Assembly (NCBI GenBank): GCA_000333855.2
Contig: CM007337.1
Span: forward strand, 358,360 to 422,359
Reading direction: 5' to 3'
DNA length: 64,000 nt
Source of the DNA: Endotrypanum monterogeii
Taxonomy: Eukaryota; Euglenozoa; Kinetoplastea; Trypanosomatida; Trypanosomatidae
In this document: positions 8,393-36,624 of the stretch, piece after piece
How positions within the stretch are numbered: the stretch's first letter is position 1
How the letters are laid out: the number at the start of each line of letters is the position of its first letter
Made by a program: the position numbers and the translations under genes
The notes under the pieces: generated by a model
The model's input: the letters and a program-made list of their open reading frames with translations, nothing else
Told to the model about the DNA's origin: nothing
The model's database searches: none

Positions 8393-10678
8393 ATGTCTCT
8401 CGCGAATCATCTAGGGCGGCCTTCGTCCGCGACGCATTATGTGCCGCACTCGGATCTGACGAAGTCGCACTATGAACGCCTCCTCCTCGACGTGCGCCGG
8501 TACCTTCCGCCCGGCGTGGAGGATGACGTGGAAGAGATCGCCGAGCAGGTACTGAGCATCGTGTGCTCTGCTGCCTCCGGCACATCCACGTCTGCAGTGG
8601 CTCTTAGCGAGCAGCAGCAGCAGAGCCTAGAACGTTTGCTGGACACCCGCCTAAGTCGTGATACTCGCGACCACTTGTTGCAATATGGGAGGTTGATCAC
8701 CGACTACGTGGCCAGCGATGAAGCGGCGGCGACAGTGCAGGATGACAGCTCGTATATGCCAGCGGCCTCATCTGGCGTATTTGGGGTGCAGGACTTGAAC
8801 TTCGCGGGTGCCAGTGACAGCGATAGTGACAGCGATGATGGCAGTGATGCTGTGCGCGGTGGCGCAGAGGAGCGTCAGACGCTAGAGCTTCTGACAGGCG
8901 GCGCGTCGTCGTGCGCAACGGAGCGAAAAGAGCGGCGGAAAAGGCGCAAGTTCCTCATGAGAGCCGACCAGAATTTAATGCAGTACGCTTTCGCTGAGGA
9001 GGGCGGCATCAGTGACACACTCGAGGAGGCAGAGGGATGGGGTGCGCGTCCGGTGCTCGGCGAAGGTGGGGCTCCTACAGGGGTGTCGAGCGAGGACGAG
9101 TATGGGGAGGATGGCCCGCTGGCAGCGGGGGCTGCTGGCGCACAGCGGATCTCGTTCGACGAGGTCGCGTGCAACGCGCAGTTCATCAAAGACGCCGTGC
9201 GACGTCTCTTTCCGGCGCAGGACGCGGACACCTGTCAGAGCGTGGCCCAGCGTGTGCTGAATTTCCTGGGTGAGAGGGAGGAGGACGACTTCACACTGGA
9301 GACCCAACTGACTACGTGTTTGGGTGGTTATGAGGACGAGGCGGTGATGGATTGGATCGGTGATGTGGTGCAGTCGCGATGGAATATTGTGTACGGCCAC
9401 CGCTACGCCCAGTGCGCGTCACAGAAGGAACGCGATGTCGTAATGGATGAGATGCGGCGACACGCCCTCGATGACCCGCTGGTCGAACATCTCTATCAGA
9501 GTATCACCGGCAAGGAGGTGGACCCGCTGAACACGGTGCAACAGCAGCAGCAGCGCCACGAGTCTGCTGCCACACGCGGCGGCGATGACGCTGCAACTAC
9601 GGTATCGACAGCGGCGCGGCAGCCCCCGCTGCGACGAGTGGACCTCCAAGCCTGCGCCTTCCAGGATGAGCGAACGCCGCATCTGCACGTTCGTGCCACG
9701 GTGCCGCAGGGTACGCAGCGGCTGACCTACGAGACCCACGATGAGGTTATCCTCCCTCCGTCGTCGTCGTACAACACGTCGACTCCTCTAATCCATGTCA
9801 CCAAAGCGTTTCCCGCCTGGGCGGCAGAGGCCTTCCCAGGAGTTACCGAGCTGAACGCCATGCAGTCCAAGGTGTACGACTGCGCCTTTAACTCGGACGA
9901 GAACATGCTGGTGAGCGCGCCGACTGGGGCCGGCAAAACGAATGTGGCGGTGATGGCGATGTTGCGCGCCATCGCGGCTGCTCGAAACCCGGCGACGGGT
10001 GTGATCGATAGCCATGATCTGAAGATGGTGTATGTCGCCCCCATGAAGGCGCTTGTGCAAGAGGTGGTGCGTACTTTCTCCAGGCGACTGGAGCCGCTAG
10101 GCCTCACGGTAAACGAGCTTTCAGGCGACGCTGCGATGACGCAGCAGCAGATGGCTACCACGCAGCTTATCGTGACAACTCCAGAGAAGTGGGATGTTGT
10201 CACGCGGAAGTCCGTCGAACTTGGTGTAGCTTCTCTGCTGAAGCTGCTTATCATCGACGAGGTGCATCTTCTCCACAACGAGCGTGGTCCCGTACTCGAG
10301 GCTATTGTAGCGCGAACGACGCTACAGCAGCAGCTCCGCGGGGAGGGCGGCATTCGATTTGTCGGTCTCAGTGCGACTCTTCCTAACTACACAGACGTCG
10401 CGGCATTCCTGCAGGTCAACCGTCAGCGCGGTCTCTTTCGGTTCGACAGCAGCTACCGCCCGATCCCTCTAGAGCAGAGCTACTGTGCCATCAAGAAATT
10501 GCGGGGTGTTGCGCAGAGTGCTGTGATGAACCTGGTAGCGTACGACAAGGTGCTAAGGGCAGTGCAGAGTGTGGTGCTCATTTGCGACAACAAAGGACAG
10601 CAATCGAGGCGCAAGGAGCGAATACGCCGTAGGATAAGCTCGGAGTCACCTGTGACCTCTGCGGTATACTTGTTCTGA
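8393..10678 (+). CDS. Brr2-like U5 snRNP helicase, N-terminal part (truncated by a chimeric junction)
   Basis: Encodes an acidic N-terminal region (about residues 1-370) and the first DExH helicase cassette of a Ski2-like Brr2 protein. Motif I is APTGAGKT at 509-516, motif II is DEVH at 622-625, and motif III is SAT within GLSATLPNY near 658. The block after DEVH (LLHNERGPVLEAIVART) is characteristic of Brr2/SNRNP200. Brr2 unwinds U4/U6 snRNA to activate the spliceosome, which in trypanosomatids serves mainly SL trans-splicing. True Brr2 coding ends near 10554. Bases 10555-10678 then encode an unrelated tail ending in a stop, because the sequence switches into a META gene fragment. Bases 10451-10554 recur at 11081-11184 with one mismatch, where the intact frame resumes. 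The annotated stop is therefore an artefact of this rearrangement or of assembly. Confidence 0.85.
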   Translation: MSLANHLGRPSSATHYVPHSDLTKSHYERLLLDVRRYLPPGVEDDVEEIAEQVLSIVCSAASGTSTSAVALSEQQQQSLERLLDTRLSRDTRDHLLQYGRLITDYVASDEAAATVQDDSSYMPAASSGVFGVQDLNFAGASDSDSDSDDGSDAVRGGAEERQTLELLTGGASSCATERKERRKRRKFLMRADQNLMQYAFAEEGGISDTLEEAEGWGARPVLGEGGAPTGVSSEDEYGEDGPLAAGAAGAQRISFDEVACNAQFIKDAVRRLFPAQDADTCQSVAQRVLNFLGEREEDDFTLETQLTTCLGGYEDEAVMDWIGDVVQSRWNIVYGHRYAQCASQKERDVVMDEMRRHALDDPLVEHLYQSITGKEVDPLNTVQQQQQRHESAATRGGDDAATTVSTAARQPPLRRVDLQACAFQDERTPHLHVRATVPQGTQRLTYETHDEVILPPSSSYNTSTPLIHVTKAFPAWAAEAFPGVTELNAMQSKVYDCAFNSDENMLVSAPTGAGKTNVAVMAMLRAIAAARNPATGVIDSHDLKMVYVAPMKALVQEVVRTFSRRLEPLGLTVNELSGDAAMTQQQMATTQLIVTTPEKWDVVTRKSVELGVASLLKLLIIDEVHLLHNERGPVLEAIVARTTLQQQLRGEGGIRFVGLSATLPNYTDVAAFLQVNRQRGLFRFDSSYRPIPLEQSYCAIKKLRGVAQSAVMNLVAYDKVLRAVQSVVLICDNKGQQSRRKERIRRRISSESPVTSAVYLF
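10451..10554 (+). repeat. Duplicated Brr2 coding segment, copy A
   Basis: These 104 bases match 11081-11184 with a single mismatch (AAATTG against AAGTTG). After base 10554 the two copies diverge, apart from a short shared AGTGCAG at 10561-10567. The repeat marks overlapping contig ends or a rearrangement breakpoint. Confidence 0.95.
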
Positions 10679-10803
10679 CCAGGATGAGGAACACTGGGCC
10701 TAAGAACGTGGTGGAGAGGGCCCTGTCTCGAGGGCTCACGCACGCAATGAAGATCGCCCTCAGCAGCGAGAGTGCGTTAGTGCACATGTCGCGTCACATA
10801 TAA
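10561..10803 (+). pseudogene. META-domain gene fragment fused behind truncated Brr2
   Basis: In the frame that ends at the TAA 10801-10803, the translation aligns over its length with the C-terminal two thirds of META copy 2. AECGAH matches VECVAH. NTP-stop-DKLGVTCDLCGILVLTRM matches the region from NTMSG to LMSTRM position for position. ALSRGLTHAMKIALSSE matches ALYRGFTHGMTYTWSSE. It has one in-frame stop (TAG at 10630-10632) and no N-terminal part, so it cannot make a META protein. It is followed by the META 3' UTR repeat at 10945-11070. It is well diverged from both intact copies, so it is an old third member of the array, not a direct copy of either neighbour. Confidence 0.75.
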
Positions 10804-10944
10804 TGCGCTTTCACGATGTCTCGGGTGCGCGCCGCGGTGTGTCGGGCTTCCTGTTTAATTTCTTCGAATCTACCTCTATTCTGTTTGTTCTTTTCTCCTT
10901 AATTCCCTTTCCCACCACTCCTTTCACCTGCGTTGACCAGTCCC

Positions 10945-11070
10945 GCCCCGCCGCTGTGCGTGTGGATGCACTGGAGCGCAGACGCGAAGGGCGCCTCCGG
11001 GTAAGGGCGCCTGCCCGGCCGATGGGGCGCCGCCATCGGTGGTCTGTGGTGTCGTGCACCGGCGCTGCGT
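10945..11070 (+). repeat. META 3' UTR repeat, copy B
   Basis: 126 bases identical to 494-619, directly abutting the N gap at 11071. An assembly ending inside an exact repeat is typical of a contig break caused by that repeat. Confidence 0.9.
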
Positions 11071-11080
11071 NNNNNNNNNN
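11071..11080. other. Assembly gap (10 N)
   Basis: Ten unknown bases. The left flank is META 3' UTR repeat; the right flank restarts inside the Brr2 gene at a position already present at 10451. The gap size is therefore nominal and the true content could be absent, small or several kilobases. Confidence 1.
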
Positions 11081-14000
11081 AGCTACCGCCCGATCCCTCT
11101 AGAGCAGAGCTACTGTGCCATCAAGAAGTTGCGGGGTGTTGCGCAGAGTGCTGTGATGAACCTGGTAGCGTACGACAAGGTGCTGCAGACAGTGCAGGCC
11201 GAGGAGCAGGTCATGATTTTTGTGCACTCGAGGCGGGAGACCGAACATACTGCACGGTACTTACAGAAGCGTGCCTCCGAGGAACGGCGGGGCTACTATT
11301 TTGTTCGCCCCGAGACTGATAGCCACAGGGCCTTGCTGAAGGTCTGTAGTGGCGCTGACGGTACAGTGCTACGCCGTAGCCTGCAACAGCTCCTTCCAGA
11401 GGGATTCGGCATCCACCACGCCGGTCTGAGTCGGGACGAGCGCAGGACTGTAGAGCAGCTGTTTGCGGATGGCTCGATCAAAGTTCTCGTCTGCACATCA
11501 ACACTGGCGTGGGGAGTTAACTTACCCGCGAACCGTGTTATCATCAAGGGCACTCGGGTGTTTAATGGTTCAAAGGGGCAGTCTGAGTTGCTGAGTGCTC
11601 TGGACGTGTTGCAGATGTTTGGAAGAGCTGGCCGTGTTGGCTATGGCGTGGCGGTGGGCAGGGCCACAATCATCACCTCCCCCGAGGACCTCCACTATTA
11701 CCTTAGCGTGTTGAACCAGCAACTGCCTATCGAATCACAGATGATGAAGCGGGTGGTTGATATGCTCAATTCTGAGATCACACTAGGCCACGTAGAGACG
11801 GTCGAGGAGGGGGTGCAGTGGCTCCAGCGGTGCTACCTGTACGTGCGCATGCGTCAGACACCAGAGGTGTACGGTATTCGTGCAAGCGTCAGTGATCCTT
11901 TGCTGCTGCACCACCTTGCAAACATTGTCCACACATCTTTCGAGGAGCTGAAGGCAGCAAAGATGGCAGACTACGACCCCCGCACCAGGAAGGTGACTGG
12001 TACACCGTATGGCCGCATCGCCTCCTACTGCTATGTTACGACCACATCGATGGCCACCTACCTGAGACTGATGAGCAATGCCATGCAGGACGTAGAGCTG
12101 TTCCGCGTGTTTGCCTCATCAAGTGAATTCGCGAACATCGGCGTGCGAGCAGAGGAGCAGGCGCAGCTGAAGGAGCTCCTGGAGAGCGCGCCGGTGGCTG
12201 TGAGGGAGTCGCGCTACACGCCTCTGGCGAAGATCAACGTCCTCCTCCAGTGTTACATAAGTCGGAAAGGCCTGGAGGGGTTGCCGCTCATGAGCGAGAT
12301 GGTGTATGTGAAAGACTCTGCGCAGCGTATTTTGCGTGCCCTCTTCGAGATTTGTCTCGTTCGCGAGTACGGCCGCACAGCTCGGCAGTTTCTTGAGCTG
12401 TACCTAATGACGGTGCACCGGCAATGGGCGGTCCAGTCGCCGCTGCGTCAGGTGCAGGGTTATTTGCCGGAAAAGCACTTCGACTCCATCCTGCCAGCGC
12501 TGGAGCGTGTTCGCGTACCATGGGAGGAGGTGCGGCGTTGGTCGGTGGAGGACTTGGCCGAGAAACTGAGCGACGACCGGCGCTCACAGTTTGCGTACGA
12601 AGCGATTCATGTTATACCACACTACGCTGTAGATGCTGCGGTGCGTCCTCTGACGCGTGGAATGCTTTACGTGGACGTTGACATCCTTCCAGATTTTCAC
12701 TACGTGGAGTCTGTGCATGGTCGTTCGGTCTGTGAAGTACTCCTTTTGATCGAGCACACGGACGGTCGCTTGCTTCATCACGAGACTGTTTTTATTCCCC
12801 AGGCAAATGTTCATAAGAATGTCTCCTATTCCTGTCCACCGGTAGTGGTGCCAATGGTGGAGCCTGCGCCAACGCACCTGTTCGTGCGTGTCGTCTCCCC
12901 ACATTGGCTGTCGGCGACGTCCTTCACCTCTGTGTGCCTCTTGAACACCCTTTTACCGCCAGTCGCGCCACCCCTGCGTGAGGTGGATCAGCGTCCACCG
13001 CTGCAGGAGGCAAACAGTACGTCTGTCGTGGAGCGTCTCGCCCCGTTCGAGCTCCACACCGTTGCTGAGATGCTCTTCCCCTTTCACAATTTCACGGCGT
13101 TGCAGTCAGACCTAATCGACCCCATCTTCCAGGATCACCCACACAACCTCCTCGTCGGTGTCCCGCCGGGTGCCGGCAAGACGGTCATCGCAGAGCTTTT
13201 CGTGTTGCATTTTCTGCTCGATGAGGCGTTGAAGGAGACGGAGCGCGCAAAGAGGGTCCAGCAACAGGAAGGAGACAGAGCGTCAGACACCGACTCTGTG
13301 AACTTGCTCCCAGGCAAGCTGCTCTACCTCACGAGCCACCCTGACGTTGTGCATCGCCGGGCGTTGGACTGGCGCTACAGGTTTGGCGAGGTATTGAGGC
13401 AGCGTGTTGTGGAGCTTGCCGGGGCCGGTGAAGCTGAGACGGTGGGCAACGACAGCGAAGTCGCAAATGCCAAAATTATGCTGGCCACTGGGGAGAATCT
13501 TATCCGTCTTGTGCGTCGAGGTGACCAGGTGTTGGCCGATGTGACGCACATAATCGTCGACCATCTGCACCTTTTGCGGGCTCCCGAGGGGCAGGCAATG
13601 GAGGAGTGCATGGCTCGACTCAACAGCGAGCCCTTTCTCGTGCGCCGAGGTTCAGGACGCGCGCGTGTGCTGGGATTAACCTACCCACTGATCAGTACAG
13701 CAGAGATCGGTCGCTGGTTAAGGGTTTCGGCGAGTCACCAGTATAACTACGGCGCCTCCTACCGTCAGCTTTGTGTGCGTATGGTGGGCGTGGACTTACC
13801 TGGCCCCCGAAGCCGTTACGAAAACGGTGTTGTCACCGCTTTGAAGTTGCTGCGCCGGCCTTCGTACGCTGCAGCTCCAACTGTGATATTTGTACCCACA
13901 GCGCGTCAGGCGCGGGAGGTTGCGCAGCGTGTATTGTTGCGGTGTCGCGACAATTGCATCCCTGATGCTACGGAGCACGCTGCCGACGATGCGCGACTCG

Positions 14001-16090
14001 CCGTATTTCTCGCGGCTGGCGTGGCCTACATGCACCGCGGTACAAGCGAACTAGATGTTCTCACGATCCAAGAGCTCGTCGAAACTCCAGCTGTCAACCC
14101 CACCACTCAGGCTTTGCTGCCATTATGTCTCGTGTGCGCCTTCGACGCCGCCTGGCGATTGCCGGCAGCTCTCTTCACCAACGCCATCATCTGCTGTGGT
14201 GAACGTTTGACGACCTTCGAGGGCGAGGATGGTGTGCGTGACACGCGTTATCAGGACTGCTCTGCAGTGGAGCTGATGCAGATGGCGTCGCGCGCCCTTA
14301 ACGAAGCGGTGTTGTGCGCCCGCACGTCGCGGGTGTGGGTGTGGGGTAAGTTCCTCAATGAGTCGTTGCCCCTCGAGTCAAGCCTGCGGTACGCAGATGA
14401 CTTTCGTGACACGGTGAATGCTGCCATTGCGCAGGGGCGGGCCCGTAGCCGTGTCGACGTGCTGCGTGTGCTGTCCTCGCACTATTTTCTTTACCATGTC
14501 AAGTCGAACCTTCACTTTTACGGAGTTCCGACGGCGGCTGATGTGTCTCTGTACGCTTCCAGCTTTGCTTCGCACGTGGTGAGCTCACTGAAGGAGCTTG
14601 GGTGCATTGAAGAGTTGAAGGTGCGGCGCCATGACGCCAATCAACGCGACAACGGTCAGGCAGAGCTTGAGGAAGCCGAGGAGGATGAGGACCCACACGC
14701 ACCTCTGCGGCCTACAGCTCGTGGTATGGCCCTCGCTCACCACTGCATCGCCGTGAGCACCGCAGAGGATCTCCTACGTGCCCTGCCGGGATCCCTTGAG
14801 GTTGGCAAGGCGACGCTCTACAACTCTACGACGTACCTGTGGCAGATCCTGGCACTCCACTGTGAGGAGTTTACACCAGCGCACCTCGGCGACACCGCAC
14901 GGGTGACGGAGGCATCGGAGTTGAGGGCGTTGCACTCGATAGCGCGTGCGCTGCCGGAGGGCCTTGGTGTGCGCTACGTTGATCTGGACTTCAATGCACC
15001 AGGGACCAAGGTCTACCTTGCGGTGCTTGCATACAGCTGTCGACTGTTCCCTCCCATTCATTTCCACGCTGCAGACGTCGTTGACTCAACTGAAAAAGCG
15101 TCTGCGGACGCTGCCTTCGATGCACATGTCGGCCACTGTCTTTACCACACTGCTCTGTCTCCCGCGGCTCGTGACTCACTCTGCAGCGCTGTGCCAGACG
15201 ATATCGCCCAGCGCCTCGTAGACGACTTACGTTCGCTCCTTCCCACCGTCCTCCGTGTCGTGACGGCGGTGGTGGAGCTGCTAGACGGCGACACGCAAGC
15301 TTGGGCAGTGGACCGCTTAATTCGTTTCGTTGCATGCCTGCATCAGCAAGTGTGGGAAATCGATCCGCCAGTGACGCAGTTGTCGTGCTGGCGCGCACCG
15401 AGATGGTCATCGCCTACTGCCCGTCTAGTCATTCAAAGCAGCTGTGCGCTGCAGGACCTACAGACCCGCCCAGCGGAGGCTACATCCAAGCTGCAGGAGG
15501 CTATTCGAGACCTCGTAACCGCTGACGACGTGGCAGTTGTTGTGCCGCGCATACTGGCCTCGGCCACACAGGACGCGGCGGGAGTGCCGCGGGTGGTGTC
15601 AATGAGTGCCAGCGGGTGTGTCGAGGAGTTGAAGGGGGTGTTGGCTATGGTGATACGTGTTGCTGCGCAGTTCCGCTGGAAGACACCAACATTGCTGGGA
15701 CTGGGCGACAAGAGCAGCGTGGATGATTGTGCGCTGGGGGTCGGCTCCTCGGGGCTTCCAGAGGGGCGTGTGGCAGCCGCGTCACAGTGGTGGGTTCGGT
15801 GTGTTGTTTCGCCTCGATCATCCGGTGCCTCCAACGTTGGCATCTCGGCAGAGACGCGTCAGTTGGCGCTACGGCGCGTCGGTACGGGTAGGATTCTGGA
15901 GAGCGCAGAGCCAGCATCGCTTTATGAGGTCTCTGCCGACCTATTTTTTCCCCTGGCGCGACTTGAGACTGAAGATTTGGATGCGGTTGAGATGCGCGCG
16001 ATCTTGACGAGCGTTGTGTACTGCAGCGTGGAGGCCACGGATGCTGTGAAATTTGAAGTGGTTGACGAGGAGAACGGAGAAAGCGCGTAG
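11081..16090 (+). CDS. Brr2-like U5 snRNP helicase, remainder to stop
   Basis: Continues the 8393 gene in frame from the duplicated segment. It contains the rest of cassette 1 (HSRRET, a GIHHAGLSRDER motif, TSTLAWGVNLPA, and motif VI QMFGRAGR at about 11611-11634), then the first Sec63-like module. A second helicase cassette begins near 13030; it keeps a P-loop (VPPGAGKT, about 13160-13183), but motif II reads DHLH and motif III LTY instead of SAT, and I see no GRAGR, followed by a second Sec63-like module. Two cassettes, the second degenerate, is the Brr2 architecture; in other eukaryotes the second is inactive and acts as a regulatory platform for Prp8 and Jab1. Joined without the duplicated segment, the protein would be about 2,355 residues, in the family range but slightly long. 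The open frame extends left only through Ns and repeat. Confidence 0.88.
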   Translation, partial: SYRPIPLEQSYCAIKKLRGVAQSAVMNLVAYDKVLQTVQAEEQVMIFVHSRRETEHTARYLQKRASEERRGYYFVRPETDSHRALLKVCSGADGTVLRRSLQQLLPEGFGIHHAGLSRDERRTVEQLFADGSIKVLVCTSTLAWGVNLPANRVIIKGTRVFNGSKGQSELLSALDVLQMFGRAGRVGYGVAVGRATIITSPEDLHYYLSVLNQQLPIESQMMKRVVDMLNSEITLGHVETVEEGVQWLQRCYLYVRMRQTPEVYGIRASVSDPLLLHHLANIVHTSFEELKAAKMADYDPRTRKVTGTPYGRIASYCYVTTTSMATYLRLMSNAMQDVELFRVFASSSEFANIGVRAEEQAQLKELLESAPVAVRESRYTPLAKINVLLQCYISRKGLEGLPLMSEMVYVKDSAQRILRALFEICLVREYGRTARQFLELYLMTVHRQWAVQSPLRQVQGYLPEKHFDSILPALERVRVPWEEVRRWSVEDLAEKLSDDRRSQFAYEAIHVIPHYAVDAAVRPLTRGMLYVDVDILPDFHYVESVHGRSVCEVLLLIEHTDGRLLHHETVFIPQANVHKNVSYSCPPVVVPMVEPAPTHLFVRVVSPHWLSATSFTSVCLLNTLLPPVAPPLREVDQRPPLQEANSTSVVERLAPFELHTVAEMLFPFHNFTALQSDLIDPIFQDHPHNLLVGVPPGAGKTVIAELFVLHFLLDEALKETERAKRVQQQEGDRASDTDSVNLLPGKLLYLTSHPDVVHRRALDWRYRFGEVLRQRVVELAGAGEAETVGNDSEVANAKIMLATGENLIRLVRRGDQVLADVTHIIVDHLHLLRAPEGQAMEECMARLNSEPFLVRRGSGRARVLGLTYPLISTAEIGRWLRVSASHQYNYGASYRQLCVRMVGVDLPGPRSRYENGVVTALKLLRRPSYAAAPTVIFVPTARQAREVAQRVLLRCRDNCIPDATEHAADDARLAVFLAAGVAYMHRGTSELDVLTIQELVETPAVNPTTQALLPLCLVCAFDAAWRLPAALFTNAIICCGERLTTFEGEDGVRDTRYQDCSAVELMQMASRALNEAVLCARTSRVWVWGKFLNESLPLESSLRYADDFRDTVNAAIAQGRARSRVDVLRVLSSHYFLYHVKSNLHFYGVPTAADVSLYASSFASHVVSSLKELGCIEELKVRRHDANQRDNGQAELEEAEEDEDPHAPLRPTARGMALAHHCIAVSTAEDLLRALPGSLEVGKATLYNSTTYLWQILALHCEEFTPAHLGDTARVTEASELRALHSIARALPEGLGVRYVDLDFNAPGTKVYLAVLAYSCRLFPPIHFHAADVVDSTEKASADAAFDAHVGHCLYHTALSPAARDSLCSAVPDDIAQRLVDDLRSLLPTVLRVVTAVVELLDGDTQAWAVDRLIRFVACLHQQVWEIDPPVTQLSCWRAPRWSSPTARLVIQSSCALQDLQTRPAEATSKLQEAIRDLVTADDVAVVVPRILASATQDAAGVPRVVSMSASGCVEELKGVLAMVIRVAAQFRWKTPTLLGLGDKSSVDDCALGVGSSGLPEGRVAAASQWWVRCVVSPRSSGASNVGISAETRQLALRRVGTGRILESAEPASLYEVSADLFFPLARLETEDLDAVEMRAILTSVVYCSVEATDAVKFEVVDEENGESA

Positions 16091-18779: not shown

Positions 18780-21257
18780 ATGTCATTTCGCCGCTCACCT
18801 GCAATGCGGCGGGTTGCCACATCTGTCGAGTTCGCGCAGATCGGAGTGGGTGTGACCCCTGAGAGGAACTTCACCATCTCTGCTAGAAGGGATGAGGACA
18901 CCGTGATGGGGGATGCGGATGATCCGATTGTTTTATCAAGCGCACCCGCACGCGTGCCCTCACCGGATCATCCCCGGCGATGCAGCATGGTGCGTATTGA
19001 TGGCGCCGACGCTCACCCATCGAGCACCTCCATATCGTTGCAGCAACTCCGCCGTCGCTCAATGGGTGAACGTCGCGGGTGCGGCTTGTTGTCTTTGAGT
19101 GGCACGAATGTCTCTGCTCGCCGCTTGTCGCGTGCGAACATGGTGGAGGTCTCTAAGGAGTACTTAAACTCCGTAGCGGAGGCGCATGGTGTCACCGTAG
19201 AGCATGTGCGCGATGTGATGATTGCTGCCCAGGGTGACACTGACCTTATGTTGGCGATTCTCCAGAGCGAGGGAGATGTGCAGCTTGCCTCACCGTCGAA
19301 TATTGATGTGCTGCATTTCGGGACCCAGGAGACAGTGCGCCGTCTCCTTCAATTTCTTGAGCTATCGAAAGAGTGGGAGGGTGAGGTGGTGCGGACACTG
19401 AACGTCACCAATGGTGATGCGCAGGAGGCGGCCGCTATCCTCGCACAGAAATCGGGCCAGCGAGCCTTTTCTCTACCGAGTGACGTTACCGCGTCGCGTC
19501 AGCAGGTACTCACACCCAGAGAAGCCGAGGAGCTGCCATTGTTGCTGCAGCGTCTAGATCAAAATCCCAGTGGCGAGACCCAACAGTTACAGGCTGAGTT
19601 CCCCGAGTGCACCGCGGAGGAGATTCGCACGGCGTTGCAGCTGACCGACGGAAACATGGATAACGCCCGAGTCTTCTTGCGAGAAAATCAAACAGCATCG
19701 AAGAGCAGTAACAGGGCCGCCATGAATAATATTTTTGCTCGGGTCGCTGCAACTGGTGGGTCGCGACCGCGGCCGAATCACAAAAAGGAGATCGAGGCTG
19801 CATATCACAAGTTCAACGGCGCCGTCGGTGTCCGCAGCAGTATTGTCGAGGTGCTCAACACCGCCACGGGGGAAGACACGGTGACCACGAGTTTGTCGCC
19901 GCAGGACATGCACCTTCATCGTAACAGTGGTCGCTCTGCCGGCGCTGGTGATGGCGCGGATAGCATAGGCCGGCTTCGGCGCCTGTCCCTGAGCGAAGGC
20001 TCTACGCCTGTCGTGTCTGGCTCGTGCAACTTTTCTTCCACCCCAAGTGGGCTGGCCTCGTCCACCCCCACAACGAGCGCAGCTCGTTGTTCGGATAAAT
20101 CGATTGACGCGCGTTGCCCGCAGCCGCCATTGCAGTCCTTTGCAGCGTCCGTGTCGACACCGCCGGTCTCCAACGGTTTTGCGAACGGGGCACGTCAGGT
20201 ATCGAGCGCGGCACGCCAGAATATACAAAGGGCGCTGTCGCAAGAGTTGGCGTCCACGACAACCGTCTCAGACAGTGCTCAGGCAACCAATGCCCCTTGT
20301 CAGCGTTCACGCCGCCTATCACTTTCACGAGATGCCACAAATGTCTCGACGCGCCTTGCGAACCGCTTTGAGCTTCCAGCGCTGCGCTCGGCGCGAGCCA
20401 GCGTCGGCGCGTCACCCAGTGGCGGTTGGACCGAGAGCCTGAACGATTTGGAAGGCGCTTCTGCTGCAGACAAGAATGCTAACAATCCGGTTGGCGGATC
20501 CTCACAATCGCCAACGAGCTCTGCGAAGGTGGTCGCTCCTCGACGGTCAAGTGTGGCAGCCGTAAACCTGAACGATCATCCCTGTGCCGGTGCCACCGGA
20601 GACGTGAGTGGGGCGGACTATGTGTGTGCCGGCGCGGGCGGCAATGCAGCCAGCAGTAACGGGGTGTATTTCGCCTCCGTAGCCCCTGGATCTGCTCTCA
20701 GCGCGTCGCAGCAGGTGGCTGGAAGAGGGCTGGTGCACTCACCGCGCACGGAAAGTCTGCTGAACACAGTCCTTGGGTCGTTTGTGAAGGGTACAATGGA
20801 CCGAGAGAGTACGAGACAGGAGCAGCACCGCCGCGCTTCTTGTGATTTGGTAAACACAACCTCCGTGCGAGCATCTTCTCTGATCGCGAGCTCCGAGAAT
20901 AAGGGTCTGGCGGTGCATCCCAGCGGTCTCTCGACGTCATTGCCGACGTCGGCTCCACCGACGCTCCCCTTCGACAGCTCAGCCACAGCACCAACTTCGA
21001 CGAACGCAGCATTTGCATGTGACTTGCCTCCTCCTCCTCCTCCACCCCCAGCCTACAGGGGAGGTGGACTCGCAGGTCCACCACCACCACCACCACCACC
21101 ACCACCACCACCACCGGCAGCGGCAGCGGCAGCGGTCTCACCGCGCGGAGACAGTGGCGTGGTAAATCCTCCTTCAGGCTTGCCTCCTCCGCCACCTCCT
21201 CCGGCCCCGCTTGGCTCTAACGGCATCCCGCCGCCTGCACCGCCGCCTGCACCACCG

Positions 21258-21292
<35 letters not shown>

Positions 21293-22523
21293 CCCTCGAG
21301 GTGGGAATGGTCAGCCGCCGCCGCTTTCAGGGAGGCGTGTGGGCGTTACAATGACCCCTGTGCCGAACTCTAGCACCACCCGCAACGTACCGATTGACGG
21401 CGCCGTTGGCGACTTCGATGATGCGATCTTCAAAGCTGCGCGACCTATTAGTCTTACGGCCGGTGCACGCGATCGGTTGCTAGCTCTTTTCCCCAAGACG
21501 GAGCCAAAACGCGGGGTAGAAGACGAAGACGCGATGGAGCGTGCCCAGCAGATTTTGGATCCGAACCGTGACCGCAACGTGAGCATCGTTTTAAAATTTA
21601 TTCGCCTGCCGATCCAGCAGATCGAGGCAAGTGTGCGGACATTTGATACGCTCACACTCGGAGAGGAACGCATATCCGGCCTTCTTAAGATCATACCCAA
21701 CTCCGAAGATTTCGAGGCGATCGCGCGCGCGCAGCGGGACCACGGCGCCGCGTGGACGCGTGCGGAGGAGCAACAACTGCCGCCCTCTGTTCGTTTTTTT
21801 ATAATGACGCAGCGTATTGACCACTACGCCGAGCGGATCCACGCCTGGAGTCTTCGCCACGAGCTCGGTGGACGACTCGAATACCTGGAGGAGAAGCTCC
21901 AAAAGGCAGACAAGGCCATCAATGCAATCTTCACCTCGCCGTCGCTGCCCGACTTGCTTTACTTCCTCCTCGAGGTGAGCAATTTTTTGAACGCTGGCAG
22001 TCGTTTCCAGGGTGCCAAGGGGTTCCCCATCACGCAGTTGCCGCAGATTATGAATTTTAAGACAACAGACGGCAAGGGCACCTTGCTGCAGTACGTGGTG
22101 GAAATACTGAGCACCGTGAATCCGCACCTGCAGGAGATCTCCAGCGAGCTCATGCCAGCCGTGGATGAGGGACGTGACATAGACGTTCCCAGCATTGAGC
22201 AGGAGCTGAAAAAATTGCGGGGTCGTCTGCAAAAGTGTAAATTATTGATTGAGCAGTTGAAGAACGACGTGCGCTGGACGAATGTGCTTGGAAAGTTCAT
22301 CTACCGCTCGTTGCCAGTTCTCGAACGTGTGGAGAAGTATGTGGAGCTGATCAACGGCAAGTCAGAGCGCTTGCGGGACTTCCTATGTGAGAAGAAGGAG
22401 ACATTCTCACTGAATGAGGTGCTTCGGGTACTCTCGAATTTCTGCAAGCGATACGACCAAGAGCGCGAGAAGCAGATCCTGAGACAGGAGCGTCTGGACC
22501 GCGTGACCGAGAAGAGGCAGTAG
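18780..22523 (+). CDS. Formin (FH1-FH2) with N-terminal UBA/CUE-like modules
   Basis: A 1,247-residue formin. The FH1 domain at about 750-850 is proline runs broken by Gly/Ala spacers, binding profilin-actin in this family. The FH2 domain spans about 875-1215 and includes the recognisable block SNFLNAGSR...GFPITQLPQI...TTDGKGTLLQYVVE (nucleotides 21978-22105). Formins nucleate and processively elongate unbranched actin filaments. No DAD-like tail or GBD/FH3 armadillo region is evident, so the usual Rho-controlled autoinhibition may be absent. Instead residues about 121-302 hold three short helical modules resembling UBA/CUE domains, the last (about 252-302, FPECTAEEIRTALQLTDGNMDNARVFL) being the clearest. 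A Ser/Ala/Thr-rich linker (about 310-745) joins them to FH1. Start: first ATG of the frame. Confidence 0.9.
21027..21325 (+). repeat. Proline-codon repeats (CCT/CCA/CCG) of the formin FH1 domain
   Basis: Three separate homogeneous proline-codon tracts, each using one dominant codon: CCT/TCC at about 21027-21048, CCA at about 21079-21115, CCG at about 21253-21293. Each tract uses its own codon, which indicates independent expansion by slippage. Confidence 0.9.
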
Positions 22524-25813: not shown

Positions 25814-28800
25814 ATGGATGTCCGAAAAACACGCGATGGCGTGCCGGAGCTGTTCAAGCGTGATCGAGTGACGCTGGTCATGCAACAGGCCCTCGCTCAG
25901 CGCTACGCCCACCCCTTGCCGCCGCCGCTCTCTGATGAATGGCGTAGTGATCGCCATACTGGAGTCAAGTGCGGCAACGCTGCTACCTTGGACATCACCG
26001 TCCCATCGCCCTCCTTGGCACCTCACTTGGTGTGCCCACAACATTACACGGTTCGCCGGTGCTCCCGCACGGAGTACTACCTTGACTTCATCCCATCGCA
26101 TCGTGATCAGCGCGTGGGCTCTGTCAGACCGCGCGCCGCGCAGCAATCGACTCTGGTCTCAGCTCCTTGGCAAGTGTTCGACGATGAAATGTCGGTGGCT
26201 ATTGAGGTGGCCGGAGAATGCTGGCGTCACACCGCTTTCACGGAACTGACAGAAACAGATCTCCACAATTTGTGTAGGCTTCCCAAAGTTGATGCAGTCG
26301 GCAGTAGCGGTTGCAGGAGCGACACCGTGTCGTCGCTAGCCCCTCTTTCCGCAGCATCGGCAACATTGCATAGCCGTCGCTTTTCTTCAGCATTTGTGTC
26401 TCGCCAGGATTTTTGTGAAATGCCGCCGCGGTGGGTTATGCAGAGTCTTAGCGAGGTGGACCAGCACATGTTCGAGAGCTTCGATGAATGGCTGTATCGC
26501 CGCCATGTAACACCGCTGGATGTGGGTGCCACCGTCGTCACGCAGGAGACGGGTGCAGGGGAAGCACCTTATTCAGCTACGGCTGCCCGAAATGATGCTC
26601 TCCCCCAAACACCTAGGACGGCACCACTGAGCTCTCACGCGAGAAGAGCAGCAAAAAAAGGTGGCGTTGCGCCAGGGTCTTCCTCATCTCCATGCTGCAT
26701 CTCATCATCTCCGTCAGAGGAAGTCGATCACGTGCCTCCTCATCAAAAGTGTTTCCGTGTGCTGGCTACTGGTAGTATGTCTCGAGGGGCTTACTGGGTG
26801 AGCGTCGCACCTCTGGCGACACAAGAGGAAGAAACGATGGCAAGGGGTTCACACTTGACGAATGCTGGCGTGTCGAATATCGTGGTTGACGAAGTCCGAT
26901 GGAAGCGTGTCGATCGCGACGATGTGCGGTTGCATCCTCCGGTGGCACTCTATGTGGACCCCCTCTTGCCCTGTGATGAGCTCTACAGCGACCGCGGGGT
27001 GAACACTGGCGTCTTTATCTTTTTCCTGCGCGCCCTCCAGCAGCACCAACGTGGGCTAGGGAAGGGTCGTAGTTCCCGCGACACCGCTTCCTCTGACGGC
27101 GGCAACAGCGATAGTGGTATGCGTCCTGGAAGTGTAGGGGATGTCTCCGATCCATTTGAGACTGCGGCATCGTTGGCCGTGCGGCTGTCCTTGTGCGCGC
27201 GACACCGTCGCCGGGAGTTGGCACGGCGTATCGATCGAGCGATCGCTGCTGCAAATGGCTCAACTTCGCAGCAGTGTGCACGCCTAGGAGAACCCGCCAC
27301 GTCGATGGCACCTGATGCAACGGCTCCCTCTTCTGAACTCCCTGGGTATACAGTACCAACGGTGCTGTTGCAGGTGCGTGTGGACTCTGCGCGCGACTCG
27401 TTGCAGCTTCGTGCGCTGGTGCAGGAAGGGGTGGTGACGCCCAGTAACACCAGCGTGTCAGGAGGTGAGCTTAGTCCCACGGTACATGCTGCCGTAGATC
27501 CCTCCTCAGCGCATGCCCCTCACCCAACGCAGTACACGGCAGTCTCCCGCAGAGCCGGTGCAAAGCGCCCGAGGGAAGAGGCAGAGGTGGGGAAGTCTCT
27601 GCGAGGCTTTCACTTCCTTCACACCCATCCGATGTCGCCATCACCCACGGTGGGGGTATTGCTTCGCTCTGCTTACAAACTTGCTTCTCTCTACGACATG
27701 ACTTGCTCGGTGGTGCAGGGGCATCGAGAGGCAGTGCGGGACGCCGCTGAAGGGTACACGGAGGCGAAGGCGCCAAACTGTACGGGGGCGGAAGCGTGTG
27801 CGTCGACGCCGACGCCAACGACTCCATCCTCTGGGGTGGCGGTCTCCATGATGACACGTCTTGCAGGCATGTGGCAATCTGTCTCAGGTGCATCAGCGTC
27901 CGAGGCTCGTGGTCTACCCAGTGAGGCGCCGCATGACTCCGGCTGGAGAACTGTGATGCTCTGCACAGGGGGTGCACATCCGCCATCAACCGGGCCTGTG
28001 GCGGAGGAAGTGGTTCTCGGTCCAGAGCCGTGTGCTCCACCAGTAGACTCTCCGATTACCGCCTCAGTGACTGAAGAGTTGATCGGCGGCCACCCGTCAA
28101 CTGATGCGGCGGCGGCAAATTTTGTCGGGGACCACCCCCGTTTTACCATCAGCACGACAGGACCCGAGCGTATTTTTCTCGCGCGACTCTTCCGGCTCCT
28201 CCTTCGGTATCGTACGCTCTTTGGAGAGCACGGCTACAACCAAGGCCCGCACGCCGCTGTGCCACCGCCGGTGATGGAGCAGCTCGCCTCCACCTTTGAG
28301 ATCAGCGCCGAGGCGTTCGCGTCCCCGCTGAATGCGCAACTGCCCCAGTACGGCTCTTTGTTTCCTGACACCGATGTCTTTTTCGGAAGCTTGGGGTCAT
28401 TCTTCGATCTACACTTCGGCGGCACCAGGGGTGCAGCACACAGCTCGCGCTCTCCAACATCAACGGGATGCACTGCCTCACCGCTGTCTGGGTGCCACAT
28501 TGAAGTGAATCCTCCATTCGACACGACCCTCCTCAGACACATGGCGACGCATCTACTGTTGAGTTTGGAGGGGGCAGAGGGATCGCCACAGAGCCTTTTA
28601 TTTTTAGTTGTTTTGCCCAGTCATGACATGACGGATGCTGAGAAGGCGGCGGCGGCAGAGAGCGCGCCGCAGTCGACAATCCAGCAACCAGCACGAACGA
28701 AGGCTGCGTTGCGTCTTGGCAATGATAAACGATGCGGTGGTGGTATAACGACTGCCTGTGCTCCGGTTACACCGAGTACTGACCGTCTCCTGCGCGAGTC

Positions 28801-29050
28801 TTCATATTGCCTTGGTCACGTTCTCTGCACGGCGACTGAGTCAGCTTACGTGGACGGCCATCAGCACCTCCTGCAAAGTCCCTTTTTCCGTATCGAGACA
28901 CCCACACGGCTGATTCTTCTTGGCAACACCGCTGCCCGTGTACGCTTCCCGCACGCCGTCTCCCAGCTGGAGTCTGTGCGTGAGACGTGGAGGGTGCTGA
29001 CAGAGGCGGCGCTACGACAGCGGTCGCCGTGTCAATCGACACCGGCGTAA
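25814..29050 (+). CDS. PCIF1/CAPAM-family putative cap-adenosine N6-methyltransferase
   Basis: A 1,078-residue protein. The C-terminal third matches the catalytic core of PCIF1 (CAPAM), which N6-methylates 2'-O-methyladenosine next to the m7G cap. The clearest block is FASPLNAQLPQYGSLFPDTD followed by FFGS (about residues 835-860), then the catalytic NPPF motif at 899-902 (28508-28519) preceded by CHIEV, and LLFLVVLPSHD (about 930-940), which fits the strand after NPPF. A preceding helical block around 785-830 also fits the family. I see no WW domain, which in vertebrate PCIF1 binds the phosphorylated Pol II CTD; trypanosomatid Pol II lacks the heptad CTD. Ser/Thr/Ala-rich linkers separate conserved blocks in the first 780 residues. 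Likely role: N6 methylation of the first nucleotide of the spliced-leader cap. Family call from sequence; cap-4 role inferred. Confidence 0.8.
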   Translation: MDVRKTRDGVPELFKRDRVTLVMQQALAQRYAHPLPPPLSDEWRSDRHTGVKCGNAATLDITVPSPSLAPHLVCPQHYTVRRCSRTEYYLDFIPSHRDQRVGSVRPRAAQQSTLVSAPWQVFDDEMSVAIEVAGECWRHTAFTELTETDLHNLCRLPKVDAVGSSGCRSDTVSSLAPLSAASATLHSRRFSSAFVSRQDFCEMPPRWVMQSLSEVDQHMFESFDEWLYRRHVTPLDVGATVVTQETGAGEAPYSATAARNDALPQTPRTAPLSSHARRAAKKGGVAPGSSSSPCCISSSPSEEVDHVPPHQKCFRVLATGSMSRGAYWVSVAPLATQEEETMARGSHLTNAGVSNIVVDEVRWKRVDRDDVRLHPPVALYVDPLLPCDELYSDRGVNTGVFIFFLRALQQHQRGLGKGRSSRDTASSDGGNSDSGMRPGSVGDVSDPFETAASLAVRLSLCARHRRRELARRIDRAIAAANGSTSQQCARLGEPATSMAPDATAPSSELPGYTVPTVLLQVRVDSARDSLQLRALVQEGVVTPSNTSVSGGELSPTVHAAVDPSSAHAPHPTQYTAVSRRAGAKRPREEAEVGKSLRGFHFLHTHPMSPSPTVGVLLRSAYKLASLYDMTCSVVQGHREAVRDAAEGYTEAKAPNCTGAEACASTPTPTTPSSGVAVSMMTRLAGMWQSVSGASASEARGLPSEAPHDSGWRTVMLCTGGAHPPSTGPVAEEVVLGPEPCAPPVDSPITASVTEELIGGHPSTDAAAANFVGDHPRFTISTTGPERIFLARLFRLLLRYRTLFGEHGYNQGPHAAVPPPVMEQLASTFEISAEAFASPLNAQLPQYGSLFPDTDVFFGSLGSFFDLHFGGTRGAAHSSRSPTSTGCTASPLSGCHIEVNPPFDTTLLRHMATHLLLSLEGAEGSPQSLLFLVVLPSHDMTDAEKAAAAESAPQSTIQQPARTKAALRLGNDKRCGGGITTACAPVTPSTDRLLRESSYCLGHVLCTATESAYVDGHQHLLQSPFFRIETPTRLILLGNTAARVRFPHAVSQLESVRETWRVLTEAALRQRSPCQSTPA

Positions 29051-31674: not shown

Positions 31675-32288
31675 ATGCTGCCAGCGATGCCAAAGCGCGA
31701 TCGCGCTCCGAAGACGATGGACGTAGCTGCTTCAGCTCCTAAGCCTCGGCTGTCTAACAGTGTAGCCGGTGCTGCAGGCTGCGCTACTCCCCCAGTTGAG
31801 CAGGTAACTCCATTGACGTCACGGTGTGCGACTGCGAACCCCTCTGTGCAGAGGCGAGGTGTTGATTTGTCCCATTCGAGCTCTCACTCAGCCTCCCTCA
31901 CTAGCGGCTCCGTTCCAGACCACTGTATGCTTCATTTGGCAACTGCGGATGGATTTGCTCAAGCAGGTCGTGGCTGGGAATCACCTCGGGGCGGCTTCTT
32001 GCCCACTGTCGCAGACACGTGCCCACCTGCCACGGTTGCAGCTCGCGTGCCTTCACCCCACACAGCGGCCACCGCCCTACCAACAGGAGATTTGATGGTC
32101 GGCATGCCGACACCGGGTCAGATCTCGACATCTGGTCAATCAAATGCCGCTATGGACACTCAGTCTATTCAGCTCCTCCAGGAGCTCCAGCAGCTGCTTC
32201 GAAGCGGCGCTCCAACGGGTGTTCTGCAACAGTGGGTGTCTGGCTATCTTCTCCAGGCGACATCCCGTGCTGCTTCTCCTCCTCTTCC

Positions 32289-32321
<33 letters not shown>

Positions 32322-32482
32322 ACTTGCTTCCTCACAACCTGCGAGGCCAGCCGGCACCACCGCCCTTTCCGTTGTAGCGCTGGGGCAGCCGATAAGCCCC
32401 GTCATCGTAGTTGGCAGCCGAGCTCTGCGCCGGCCTCTACCAGCCGTTTCCTTCTCTCTCTCCACCGACTCCCATTCTCACA

Positions 32483-32515
<33 letters not shown>

Positions 32516-35500
32516 CTGAAACACAGGAGAGGCCCCCAAATGACACCACCACCACTCTTACTGAAGAAGTCTTCACTCCTTCATGCACCGACTCTGTGCG
32601 CACAGCTAATACCAGCAGTTTCTCTAATAAGCCGCCCGTCATGGGTGATGGGAGTGCCGTATCTCGCATGCCAGTGATCGGCAAGACAACACCGTTCCTT
32701 GTGGCTGCGCAGTCGGAGGCCGAGACAAGGGCACCTCTACATAAAGCTTCGCAGTCGGTTTCTGTTGGCGTGGCAGTGACAGCCTCACTGGAAAGGGGCG
32801 CGTGCCTCATTGTCGATGATCCGCTCGCCGTCACGGATGGTGACGACGTCGACGTATCTCCGCCTCAAAGCGGTTCGGGCGGCGGCAACGGATTACTGAA
32901 GGCCTCGCGGCCGTGTGTACAGCACTCGCAGTGGCGTTCTTTTCGCGCCAAGGGCAGCACTGCTGGCTGCAACTCTGTAACTTCCCCGTCTGGTGGGGCA
33001 CAGTCCGTGACAATGACTGGGGTCGGTGCTCACTCCTCCACGCACATCGCTCCGCCTTTATTACCGCCCACGAGCCCTACAGGTACTCCAACGAAGTGCC
33101 GTATCGCTTCCGCGCTGCACTCAGTCACTAAGGCAGCGATTCACGCGACTACGTCCCAGCTCATGACAGAGGAGCAACAGAGCATCTCCTTGTTTATCGG
33201 AGAGCGCTTCTCCCGCCACCCTCAAAACTACCTCCGTTGTGGAGCGGCGTCGCTTTCCGCTGGCAGTGGAAGTTCTCCCGGAGCACAGGCGTCGTCTGGT
33301 GCGACGTCGAGTGCGGTTTTGTTTCAGGGGAAGCCATATGACGGGATCAGCCTCGGCGCAGAAGGAGACGGCACCTCTGGCGTCACTGCTGAGGCCACCA
33401 CACTTCAGCAACGTGATGTGTCGGCTCCTACCTTGGATGTTTCGAGGACACTGTTGGCATGTAGGACACATGTTCCGCACAGTATCCCAGAAAGTGGTGC
33501 TGTGCCCGCGGTGGTTTCTGGAGTGCACCACGTGCCCTTGATCTCCACGAACCCGGCAGCTCCGGAAAGTCTTGCCGCGCGCGACCTCATTTCCAGAATC
33601 CCTCAAAACCCTATCGTGCCCTCGACGCTCGCGACTGCGGCCATGGAAACGGCCGAACATGATGCTTCCGGGGTATCATCCCAGCAAGGGAATCACCAAG
33701 TCGCGACCAACAACCGCGACGCCTTGTCGGCCGCGTTCTCCAGCAACAGGGACGGCGATGCTGCTACTAGGATCTCGTCATTGGTCGTCGACGACTTCGC
33801 ATCACATGAGAGGCGTATGAAATGCGCTTCTCCAGAGCAGCCTGCCGACATGGATACAGAGGCGGAGCGCAAGATGTTGCTGCACCGTCGTCGGCAGAGT
33901 GTCAACCTGTCGGGTGTGGTGGCCGTCCGCTCGCCTCCGGCTGCTGCGGAGAGTGCAGCAGGGGATGCTGCGGAGATGGCGGTGGCTGCCGATGGATCCG
34001 ATGTCATTTCCCTCATTGATATCAATCCGGAGGACGCGAGTGCGTCGTGTACCCCCACCCGGAGATCGCCCGGCCTCGATGCCTCATCTACGTTCAGTGG
34101 GAGCGACTGCCATGAGTTGCGACGCTCGTGGGCAGAAGCTGCAAGGATGTCTGCCGATCGTCATCACCGCTTTCCTTTCCGCGCTCCCATTATGACACTT
34201 CCGCCCGTGAACGCTATTTGTGCACCGTCCGCCTTGGCACCTCAGTCGATGGGGGCTATCCCCGCGAGCAACTTTGGAAACTCGCTCTCGCAGTACTTCA
34301 CGTCACCGTCCGCGGTGGCCCAGCGCGCCCGCCCTGCGTCTATACCGCCACGGCGGTCGACCAGCTTCGCCTCCATGACCAGTAGCCACCTCGGCGGTGG
34401 TGGAGCGTCCGGGGAAACCGGCTTGTCAGCGTTTCTCAACCTCGGCGGTCGCAGCTGTTTTTGTCATGACGAGATGCCGAGCACGAATAGCTGCCGCGCT
34501 ACTTGTGTGTCTGCCATTGGCGACAACATCGAGGACAGATGTCGGCGTCGCGCATCTGTCCTTCGGCTGAGCCGCTCTTCGCTTAACGGAGGGGTTGATC
34601 ACACGGACGGCGTCATGGCAACTTTTTTCTTGGATGACATTAGCGGTGCACAACACCGTTCGGGCCCGCGCTTCTTGCGCTCCTTCTGCCGTCACACGCC
34701 TGTGCGGGTCACGGAGGGCGTGACACAGGAAGTCCTAAAGGCGCTCGGTGTGCCGTTCTTGGGTGGCATTGACCACGCCTCGGAGCCAACAAACGTATTC
34801 AGGCTGATGGAATCGCATGGGTTTGAGGATATCCGCGTCTTTTATGTGGCGATGTGCCTTAATGTGCTTCTGCGTTACGAGTTTGTTCGGCGCTTTGGGT
34901 GGAACGTGCCGAGACTGAAGAGGTTTTTTGAGGTGGCTGCGACATACTTCTGTGACGGTAACCCGCTACACAATGCGCTGCACGCCGTCGACGTCGTTGT
35001 GGCGGCGCACCAGTGGATCGGCGAGGGGAGCACCGGTGCAGCACTTACAGATGATGAGGTGATGACCTTCTTGTTCACTGCCATGGTGCAGCAGCTTGCC
35101 CACACCGGTGTAGATAACCTCCTCTTGGCACACCTGAAACATCCGTATGCGATGCTCTGCAGCTACGCGTCACCGCAGCAAGGTGCCACTGTCGCACTCT
35201 TGATGTCTCTTCTTAGTCGACCGGAGCTGCATTTTTTCCCCGAGCCCTTCCTCGATGGTAGCGACGTCCCCGGTGTCGCCGGCAGTGCGGATGCGACAGT
35301 GGTGCCTGAGTGGACTATCAGTCGAGAGCTGCAGATGTATGACATGCTGGCGGACCTCATCATAGCAACAGACGAGCGCAATCAAGCGATTCTGAAACAA
35401 GGCATCGTGCGCATGGGTGAGGAAAATAGGCGGCGGCACGGCTGTCTGTGTGCTACCACACCCGGCGACTGCCCCGCAGCGGCTTGGCAGGGCCCGTCTC

Positions 35501-36624
35501 GCTTCGCACGACAGCCGGACACCGCGGCACGCATGCTGTATCCGTCTCAGCAGGGAAACTTCTGCTTAAACTGCTGTGCTTACATCATCGATGCGCACGT
35601 GCCCGCCGTGCTGAAGGCGGTGCTGTTCTTTATTGAGTACGCCTTCTTGTTCAGACCCTACCAGGTATACCTCATCCAGAGCGTCGCCTACATCGCAGAG
35701 CTTTACCGGCAGAACGAGCGCGAGTACAAGCTCTTCCAAGAATTGCAGCAGGAGCAGGTGCGGAAGGCCCAACTGGGTAAGACAGATGAGGGGAGTCTTG
35801 GTGGGACGGTGCTGCCGCCGCCGTCTGGTGTCGGCCGCGTGGGCGGCGCTTCCTCTGCTCCATCGGCAAACGCGTACACGTTCGCTACTGCTCTCCTGGC
35901 CGAACATCATCCGTGGCGGCAAGGCGTCGCTCAGGCCTCCACCATGACCTCGCTGCAGCGTAACAACGAAGAACCCGTGATGGGTCCCGATGCACTGTTC
36001 GTGCCCTACCATGCGACGGGTGTGGTACTGCCACTCGAGAGCGATACTCGCAGGGACTCTGCGTTGGAGTCGCTGGAAGCGCTCGAAGAGGACGTCGTAA
36101 AACCAGTGGCAAGCGCGGCTTGTAATGAGGGTACGTGTTCATCGAACGTATTGGGTACCTCAAGTCGCGTGCGGCCTCTCAAGGGGTTGGGCCGTGATAT
36201 AGTGCTCATAAGCATCGAGGACTTGTGCCTCCCATTTCTCGAGCAGCTGTCGCCTTACATGCCACAGGCATGGGTGGAGGCGTGCTACCGAAACTATCAG
36301 ATGCTCGTGAAGGATCTGCCAACGCCGGAGGAGTTTGATGAGGTGGTGTATCGCTTCCTTGATATGGGCGAGGAGACTGGAGCGGAGAACACGAAAGGGG
36401 ACTGCACAAGAGAGGGTGATCCCGAGGATGGGGAGACGGACTCGATTACCGCTGACCGTCCTTTCACGTTGCCCTGGCGGCTTTTGCGCCCGCTGCGCCC
36501 TATCGTTGCTGAGTGGGCCGTGAGCAAGGACAAGCTCGTTCAGCGTGTACTCCGGGAAATTATGAGAGGACCCCAGCAGCTACTGAGGGAAATCGACGAA
36601 TCCCGAGAAGCAATGGAGCGTTGA
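31675..36624 (+). CDS. Degenerate class I cyclic-nucleotide phosphodiesterase homologue (pseudo-PDE)
   Basis: A 1,649-residue protein: about 1,000 residues of Ser/Ala/Thr-rich sequence (with an Ala run near 205-215 and a Gln run near 272-280), then a PDE catalytic-domain fold at about 1010-1340, a linker, and a last helical block to about 1630. The PDE signature starts well: H1099-N-A-L-H1103-A-V-D matches HNxxHAxDV. The next motif, normally HDxxHPG, reads Q1139-Q1140-L-A-H-T-G, and the later K-x-A-D-I motif reads C-C-A-Y1303-I. By PDE4 numbering, three of four metal ligands (His200, Asp201, Asp318) are replaced. The substrate glutamine also seems lost. The fold call is firm; catalysis is unlikely, so a scaffold or cyclic-nucleotide-sensing role is possible. 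The ATG at 31675 is chosen as first ATG after TTTTCAG at about 31530-31536; 31687 is an alternative. Confidence 0.8.
32289..32323 (+). repeat. GCC-codon run (polyalanine) in the pseudo-PDE
   Basis: Ten or so consecutive GCC codons encode a polyalanine tract in the N-terminal low-complexity region. Confidence 0.9.
32488..32514 (+). repeat. CAG-codon run (polyglutamine) in the pseudo-PDE
   Basis: Nine consecutive CAG codons encode a polyglutamine tract, likely length-polymorphic. Confidence 0.9.

Follow-up and report, generated by a model that had tools for sequence, protein, structure and literature searches.

A PCIF1/CAPAM-family methyltransferase gene in the window

We analyzed a 64,000-nucleotide stretch of the Endotrypanum monterogeii genome (contig CM007337.1, positions 358,360 to 422,359 of the forward strand; hereafter the window), in which an open reading frame (ORF) on the forward strand, running from an ATG at 25814 to a stop codon ending at 29050, encodes a 1078-residue protein of the PCIF1/CAPAM methyltransferase family (gene A). 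The gene bears on cap-4, a structure on trypanosome and Leishmania mRNAs that has been described, including in PMC11417388, as more extensively methylated than any other mRNA cap. The recapping enzyme TbCe1 is strongly stimulated by the trimethyladenosine of cap-4 (PMC11417388; this and the other PMC articles are cited from excerpts). The following features were assigned:

25814..29050, forward strand: PCIF1/CAPAM-family methyltransferase gene, kinetoplastid paralogue A, 1078 amino acids (ORF, Pfam, PDB search, tree, structural alignment)
25883..27964, forward strand: helical-domain part, about residues 24-717, with low-complexity inserts and approximate bounds (alignment to the human PCIF1 structure from residue 24; inserts with low predicted local distance difference test scores)
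28160..29011, forward strand: Rossmann methyltransferase domain, about residues 783-1066 (PF12237 at 786-940; secondary structure of the model; structural alignment to residue 1060)
28316..28333, forward strand: FASPLN motif, residues 835-840 (sequence and alignment)
28346..28375, forward strand: QYGSLFPDTD motif, residues 845-854 (sequence and alignment)
28508..28519, forward strand: NPPF catalytic motif, residues 899-902 (sequence; present in 33 of 33 clade-A rows)
28616..28627, forward strand: PSHD loop, residues 935-938 (PSHD in 29 of 33 clade-A rows; P-x-W here in 17 of 25 rows outside A, B and C)
28847..28870, forward strand: YVDGHQHL, residues 1012-1019, aligned with SGSQH in the human and zebrafish PCIF1 chains of the PDB (profile alignment)

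The family membership proposed in an earlier, sequence-only reading of this DNA was backed by profile, motifs and fold. Gene A matched PF12237, its sole Pfam match, at residues 786-940 (E value 3.3e-32; 111.9 bits against a gathering score of 31.1), and a single-sequence search of the PDB retrieved human and zebrafish PCIF1 at 1.4e-13 and 1.1e-13, respectively. With a profile built from a 34-row alignment (31 clade-A rows and three other family members), the corresponding values were 2.5e-43 and 8.1e-44. In view of the PF12237 score and these PCIF1 matches, the resemblance in motifs and family is not a matter of chance. The same alignment supported the start codon, as M1 is kept in at least 90% of rows. 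The motif series singled out in the sequence-only reading was found in place and in PCIF1 order, with FASPLNAQLPQYGSLFPDTD at residues 835-854 followed by NPPF at 899-902 and the hydrophobic strand LLFLVVLP. Further towards the C terminus, YVDGHQH of gene A pairs with YRSGSQH of the PCIF1 chains in the PDB.

Structural comparison with human PCIF1 showed a helical domain specific to PCIF1 that is linked to a methyltransferase domain of the Rossmann type, and the model additionally contains a group of beta-strands at residues ~313-373 (the GAYWVSV region). Gene A thus resembles animal PCIF1/CAPAM (PDB 6irv-6is0) in its two domains and in the order of FASPLN, FPDTD and NPPF, but differs from it in its large low-complexity inserts, in carrying PSHD for P-x-W, in having no Glu five residues after NPPF (NPPF+5) and in lacking a WW domain. 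This last point, made already from the sequence alone, extends to the two paralogues described below: a Pfam search of genes A, B and C returned only PF12237 and no counterpart of the N-terminal WW domain of the animal proteins, and none of the seven WW matches in a whole-genome control search fell within the three PCIF1 genes. This absence may reasonably be tied to a polymerase whose C-terminal domain is without heptads.

A genome with three PCIF1 paralogues

Scanning all six frames of the 30.7 Mb assembly with PF12237 placed three loci above the cut-off, with four matches among them. Locus A is the window gene (C17 in our numbering); locus B (C36) holds two pieces of the domain in one ORF of 653 residues, counted from the first ATG; locus C (C24) encodes 590 residues and scored 36.6 bits against the gathering score of 31.1. 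The model of paralogue C also shows the fold of the family, comprising both the helical and the methyltransferase domain. Orthologues of B and C already carry the label of PCIF1-domain proteins in public annotation, and placing them in the family is therefore nothing new. Among the literature listings and paper excerpts covered, a set that leaves most subscription papers and supplements outside, we saw no description of several kinetoplastid PCIF1 paralogues or of the active-site variant reported below; a PCIF1 tree announced as Figure S2 in the supplement of PMC8868631 may show paralogues.

For each paralogue, about 8,000 candidates that shared words with the query were scored in a homologue search, which gave 55 proteins for A, 14 for B and 43 for C. 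Named kinetoplastid matches of A came from Porcisia, Leishmania, Novymonas, Leptomonas and six Trypanosoma species, those of B from Leishmania, Porcisia, Novymonas and Angomonas, and those of C from, among others, Porcisia, Leishmania, Novymonas, Leptomonas, Trypanosoma, Strigomonas, Phytomonas and Angomonas. As the searches were word-limited, a paralogue missing from some lineage is no evidence of loss. No Trypanosoma protein was named among the 14 matches of B, some of which are unnamed, which does not imply absence; likewise, Phytomonas, Strigomonas and Angomonas were not named among the matches of A, a search whose length window excluded proteins shorter than ~593 residues.

Before tree building, each of 115 proteins was assigned from the match lists to A (33), B (13), C (44) or a remainder of family members that fall in none of the three clades (25). 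A quick tree of all 115 recovered A, B and C as one clade each (support 98, 100 and 100), as did a more careful tree of 52 of these rows (98/97, 100/100 and 100/100). The latter grouped A with B as a weak clade (79/20), and approximately unbiased tests in which A+C, B+C or A+B+C were held together rejected none of these groupings (P = 0.2, 0.253 and 0.207). Paralogue C sits on a very long branch (4.59), where the tree-building program flagged a meeting of long branches. Given the weak support for A+B, the lack of any rejected grouping and the long C branch, we leave the order in which A, B and C split unsettled.

An invariant active-site variant in paralogue C

Motifs were counted on an alignment of all 115 rows. 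NPPF is present in all A (33/33) and B (13/13) rows and in 23 of the 25 other rows, the remaining two, P0037 and P0038, carrying GPPY. In paralogue C, DVPY replaces NPPF in 44 of 44 rows and is directly followed by DED in each of them, making DVPYDED invariant. Gene A by itself is a further member of a known family; paralogue C, by virtue of its DVPY, counts as a variant form, distinct from canonical PCIF1. At the second residue upstream of the motif, Glu is found in 33/33 A, 13/13 B and 21/25 other rows, and Thr in 44/44 C rows; the motifs on the S-adenosylmethionine (SAM) side are kept in both gene A and paralogue C. The loop after the next strand reads PSHD in 29/33 A, PDS in 13/13 B and P-x-W in 17/25 other rows. 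In C it reads P-x-W-W, with P450, W452 and W453 invariant in the 44-row alignment (a simple pattern caught 42 of the 44).

In zebrafish PCIF1, the m7G cap is contacted by R239, R269 and E563 (PMC11550742). By manual count on the zebrafish PDB chain, with a single offset that also sets both arginines on Arg, E563 corresponds to NPPF+5, a position holding Glu in 44/44 C rows, 0/33 A rows and only 5/25 other rows, and His in 13/13 B rows. In the profile alignment, the R239 column of C is a nearly invariant Lys (K67); R269 has no aligned Arg in C, the invariant R150 lying four residues further on.

The DVPY of paralogue C shares the motif x-[V/L/I]-P-[Y/F] with the KsgA/Dim1/TFB1M/Erm adenosine dimethyltransferases and fits their N-[LIV]-P-[YF] at three of four positions, with Asp for Asn. 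KsgA chains were the first structural matches of the C model outside PCIF1 (ranks 7-13); the KsgA/Dim1 profile PF00398 found no match in C, for which Pfam listed only PF12237.

Other candidate methyltransferases of the genome were surveyed alongside. Two genes matching PF00398, probably Dim1 and an organellar ribosomal RNA (rRNA) enzyme, were set aside as candidates for cap enzymes. The Dim1-like frame contains the motif pattern at two places (DFPY, NVPY), as does a BMT5-like frame (DHPF, NNPH); we took NVPY (context ANVPYAISS) and NNPH (context FNNPHIG) to be, presumably, the family motifs. The BMT5-like gene with NNPH (G000:C25:7752-8318) is a candidate for N3-methylation of uridine in rRNA or cap-4. 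MT-A70 matched nowhere in the genome but also nowhere in the control genomes, so absence is not implied; METTL16 (PF05971) gave no match in this genome and was found in 5 of 14 control genomes. A Leishmania-type spliced-leader exon had no match in the assembly at zero or up to three mismatches, nor did its first 23 bases at up to two; the spliced-leader array may be missing from the assembly, or the exon may differ.

A possible two-step route to the cap-4 dimethyladenosine

The abstract of Pandey et al. 2020 reportedly presents Trypanosoma Pcif1 as a methylase for N6,2'-O-dimethyladenosine (m6Am) that contributes to the trimethyladenosine (m6,6Am) of cap-4. The production of m7Gppp-m6Am by Trypanosoma cruzi PCIF1 is already on record (Pandey 2020, as cited in PMC11417388), rendering outdated the remark in the sequence-only reading that no assigned N6 enzyme was known; given these earlier Trypanosoma reports, the idea that gene A methylates N6 at the cap is not novel. 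The protein assayed from T. cruzi presumably belongs to clade A and would then be the orthologue of gene A, P0018, which is shorter (694 versus 1078 residues; 43.8% identity over 669 aligned residues). The excerpts disagree on who performs the dimethyl step: according to PMC11417388 (2024), neither the N6,N6-dimethyl nor the N3-methyluridine activity of cap-4 has been reported, whereas PMC8868631, citing Pandey 2020, credits PCIF1 with both m6Am and m6,6Am.

Gene A is the kinetoplastid PCIF1/CAPAM orthologue and probably methylates N6 of the first spliced-leader adenosine. Family, fold, SAM-side and NPPF motifs and conservation among trypanosomatids come from the present data; the m6Am activity comes from the literature on T. 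cruzi PCIF1, and we infer that gene A acts like that enzyme. In such a scheme, the m7G-capped 5' end of the spliced-leader RNA would be bound between the helical domain and the methyltransferase domain, and SAM would donate a methyl group to N6 of the first, 2'-O-methylated adenosine, whose amino group would be held by NPPF. In a second step, paralogue C, with the same fold and DVPY for NPPF, would convert m6Am to m6,6Am.

That the dimethyl mark arises from A and C acting in turn is a tentative proposal, as is its corollary that C could be the unassigned cap-4 dimethylase, arisen inside the PCIF1 family and not in the KsgA/Dim1 family. The invariant DVPY, the wide occurrence of C among trypanosomatids and the unassigned dimethyl activity all agree with the two-enzyme model, whose basis is motif resemblance and phyletic pattern. 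The sequence-only reading had named gene A as prime candidate for the dimethyladenosine; its family stands and a first N6 methylation is likely, but dimethylation is a separate matter, for which paralogue C may be the more natural candidate. With three PCIF1 paralogues present together, one of them bearing a changed motif that did not vary among the rows recovered, the cap-4 gap left by the two methylating activities unreported in the PMC11417388 excerpt narrows to a short gene list. If the model is true, the kinetoplastid N6,N6-dimethyl mark would be a relay of two PCIF1 paralogues.

Several observations weigh against one or other of the two steps. If PCIF1 makes both m6Am and m6,6Am, as stated in PMC8868631, C is not needed for the second step. 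The activity of gene A is itself predicted, and which T. cruzi paralogue was assayed is presumed. Foldseek alone scores gene A weakly overall (template modeling score 0.17 by query, 0.36 by target). At the active site, the tryptophan after the strand (17/25 other rows) is His in A, and the counted E563 site is Thr, Ala or Ser in 33/33 A rows, although Glu stands there in just 5/25 other rows. Finally, the better conservation of C stems partly from the inserts of A, local identity to T. cruzi being 50% for both in the searched regions.

Alternative assignments of the cap-4 activities

The alternatives considered are not all mutually exclusive. The strongest, although rather unlikely, is that A alone adds both N6 methyl groups and that B and C have other jobs. 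This agrees with the assignment of both products to PCIF1 in PMC8868631 (citing Pandey 2020), and the kinetoplastid-specific site of A, with PSHD for P-x-W and no acid at NPPF+5, could accommodate a methylated amine; however, dimethylation is unreported in the PMC11417388 excerpt despite the known T. cruzi m6Am enzyme, and A retains the NPPF of the mono-methylating PCIF1.

With distinctly lower probability, paralogue C makes the N3-methyl group of U4 (m3Um), the other unassigned mark of cap-4. N3-methyluridine activity is likewise unreported (PMC11417388, excerpt), C is widespread in trypanosomatids with the cap-enzyme fold kept, and its Asp in place of Asn could accept a proton from N3. Yet DVPY resembles the motifs of adenine dimethylases (NVPY and NLPF in the same genome), the BMT5-like gene offers another m3U candidate, and U4 lies farther from the cap than A1.

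We regard as similarly improbable that A, B or C writes N6-methyladenosine elsewhere, for example in the poly(A) tails of mRNAs in trypanosomes, where the mark is present (PMC9778586). The described loss of METTL3, METTL14 and METTL4 in kinetoplastids (PMC8868631) would favor such a role, but known members of the PCIF1 family act beside the cap, and the PCIF1-type helical domain is kept by fold in A and C.

Least probable of all is that C is a catalytically dead scaffold: its NPPF is lost, and changes of this motif accompany an absence of m6Am in Drosophila (F to H) and in the honey bee (F to Y, where m6Am also went unseen and the authors doubt the change as cause; PMC9479742), but an inactive site would be expected to drift, whereas DVPYDED is invariant in 44/44 rows and the SAM-side motifs are kept.

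Multidomain PCIF1 relatives and neighboring genes

Three PCIF1 relatives carry additional domains. P0052 (938 residues) fuses both FTO domains (PF12933, 5.7e-54; PF12934, 1.6e-19) to the PCIF1 methyltransferase domain (1.6e-38) and, judged by domain content, would both write and erase cap m6Am. In P0046 (1047 residues), RNA polymerase Rpb1 domain 5 (PF04998, 2.4e-23) precedes the PCIF1 domain, which might couple cap methylation to the polymerase; the protein is possibly of viral origin. P0044 (877 residues) has a Dev_Cell_Death domain (PF10539, 1.8e-10) ahead of its PCIF1 domain.

Elsewhere in the window, an open frame of at least 3942 residues (52174-63999), which runs past the window end, had no Pfam match at 0.001. 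The remaining genes noted encode a weakly NAA35/Mak10-like protein under the curated cut-offs (45978-48206), a protein with a partial cyclic-nucleotide phosphodiesterase domain (31675-36624) and a formin (FH2; 18780-22523). A Brr2/SNRNP200-like helicase (8393-16090) is interrupted, probably through an assembly fault: its two ORFs (8393-10678 and 11156-16090) are separated by a stretch of N and a repeated flank.
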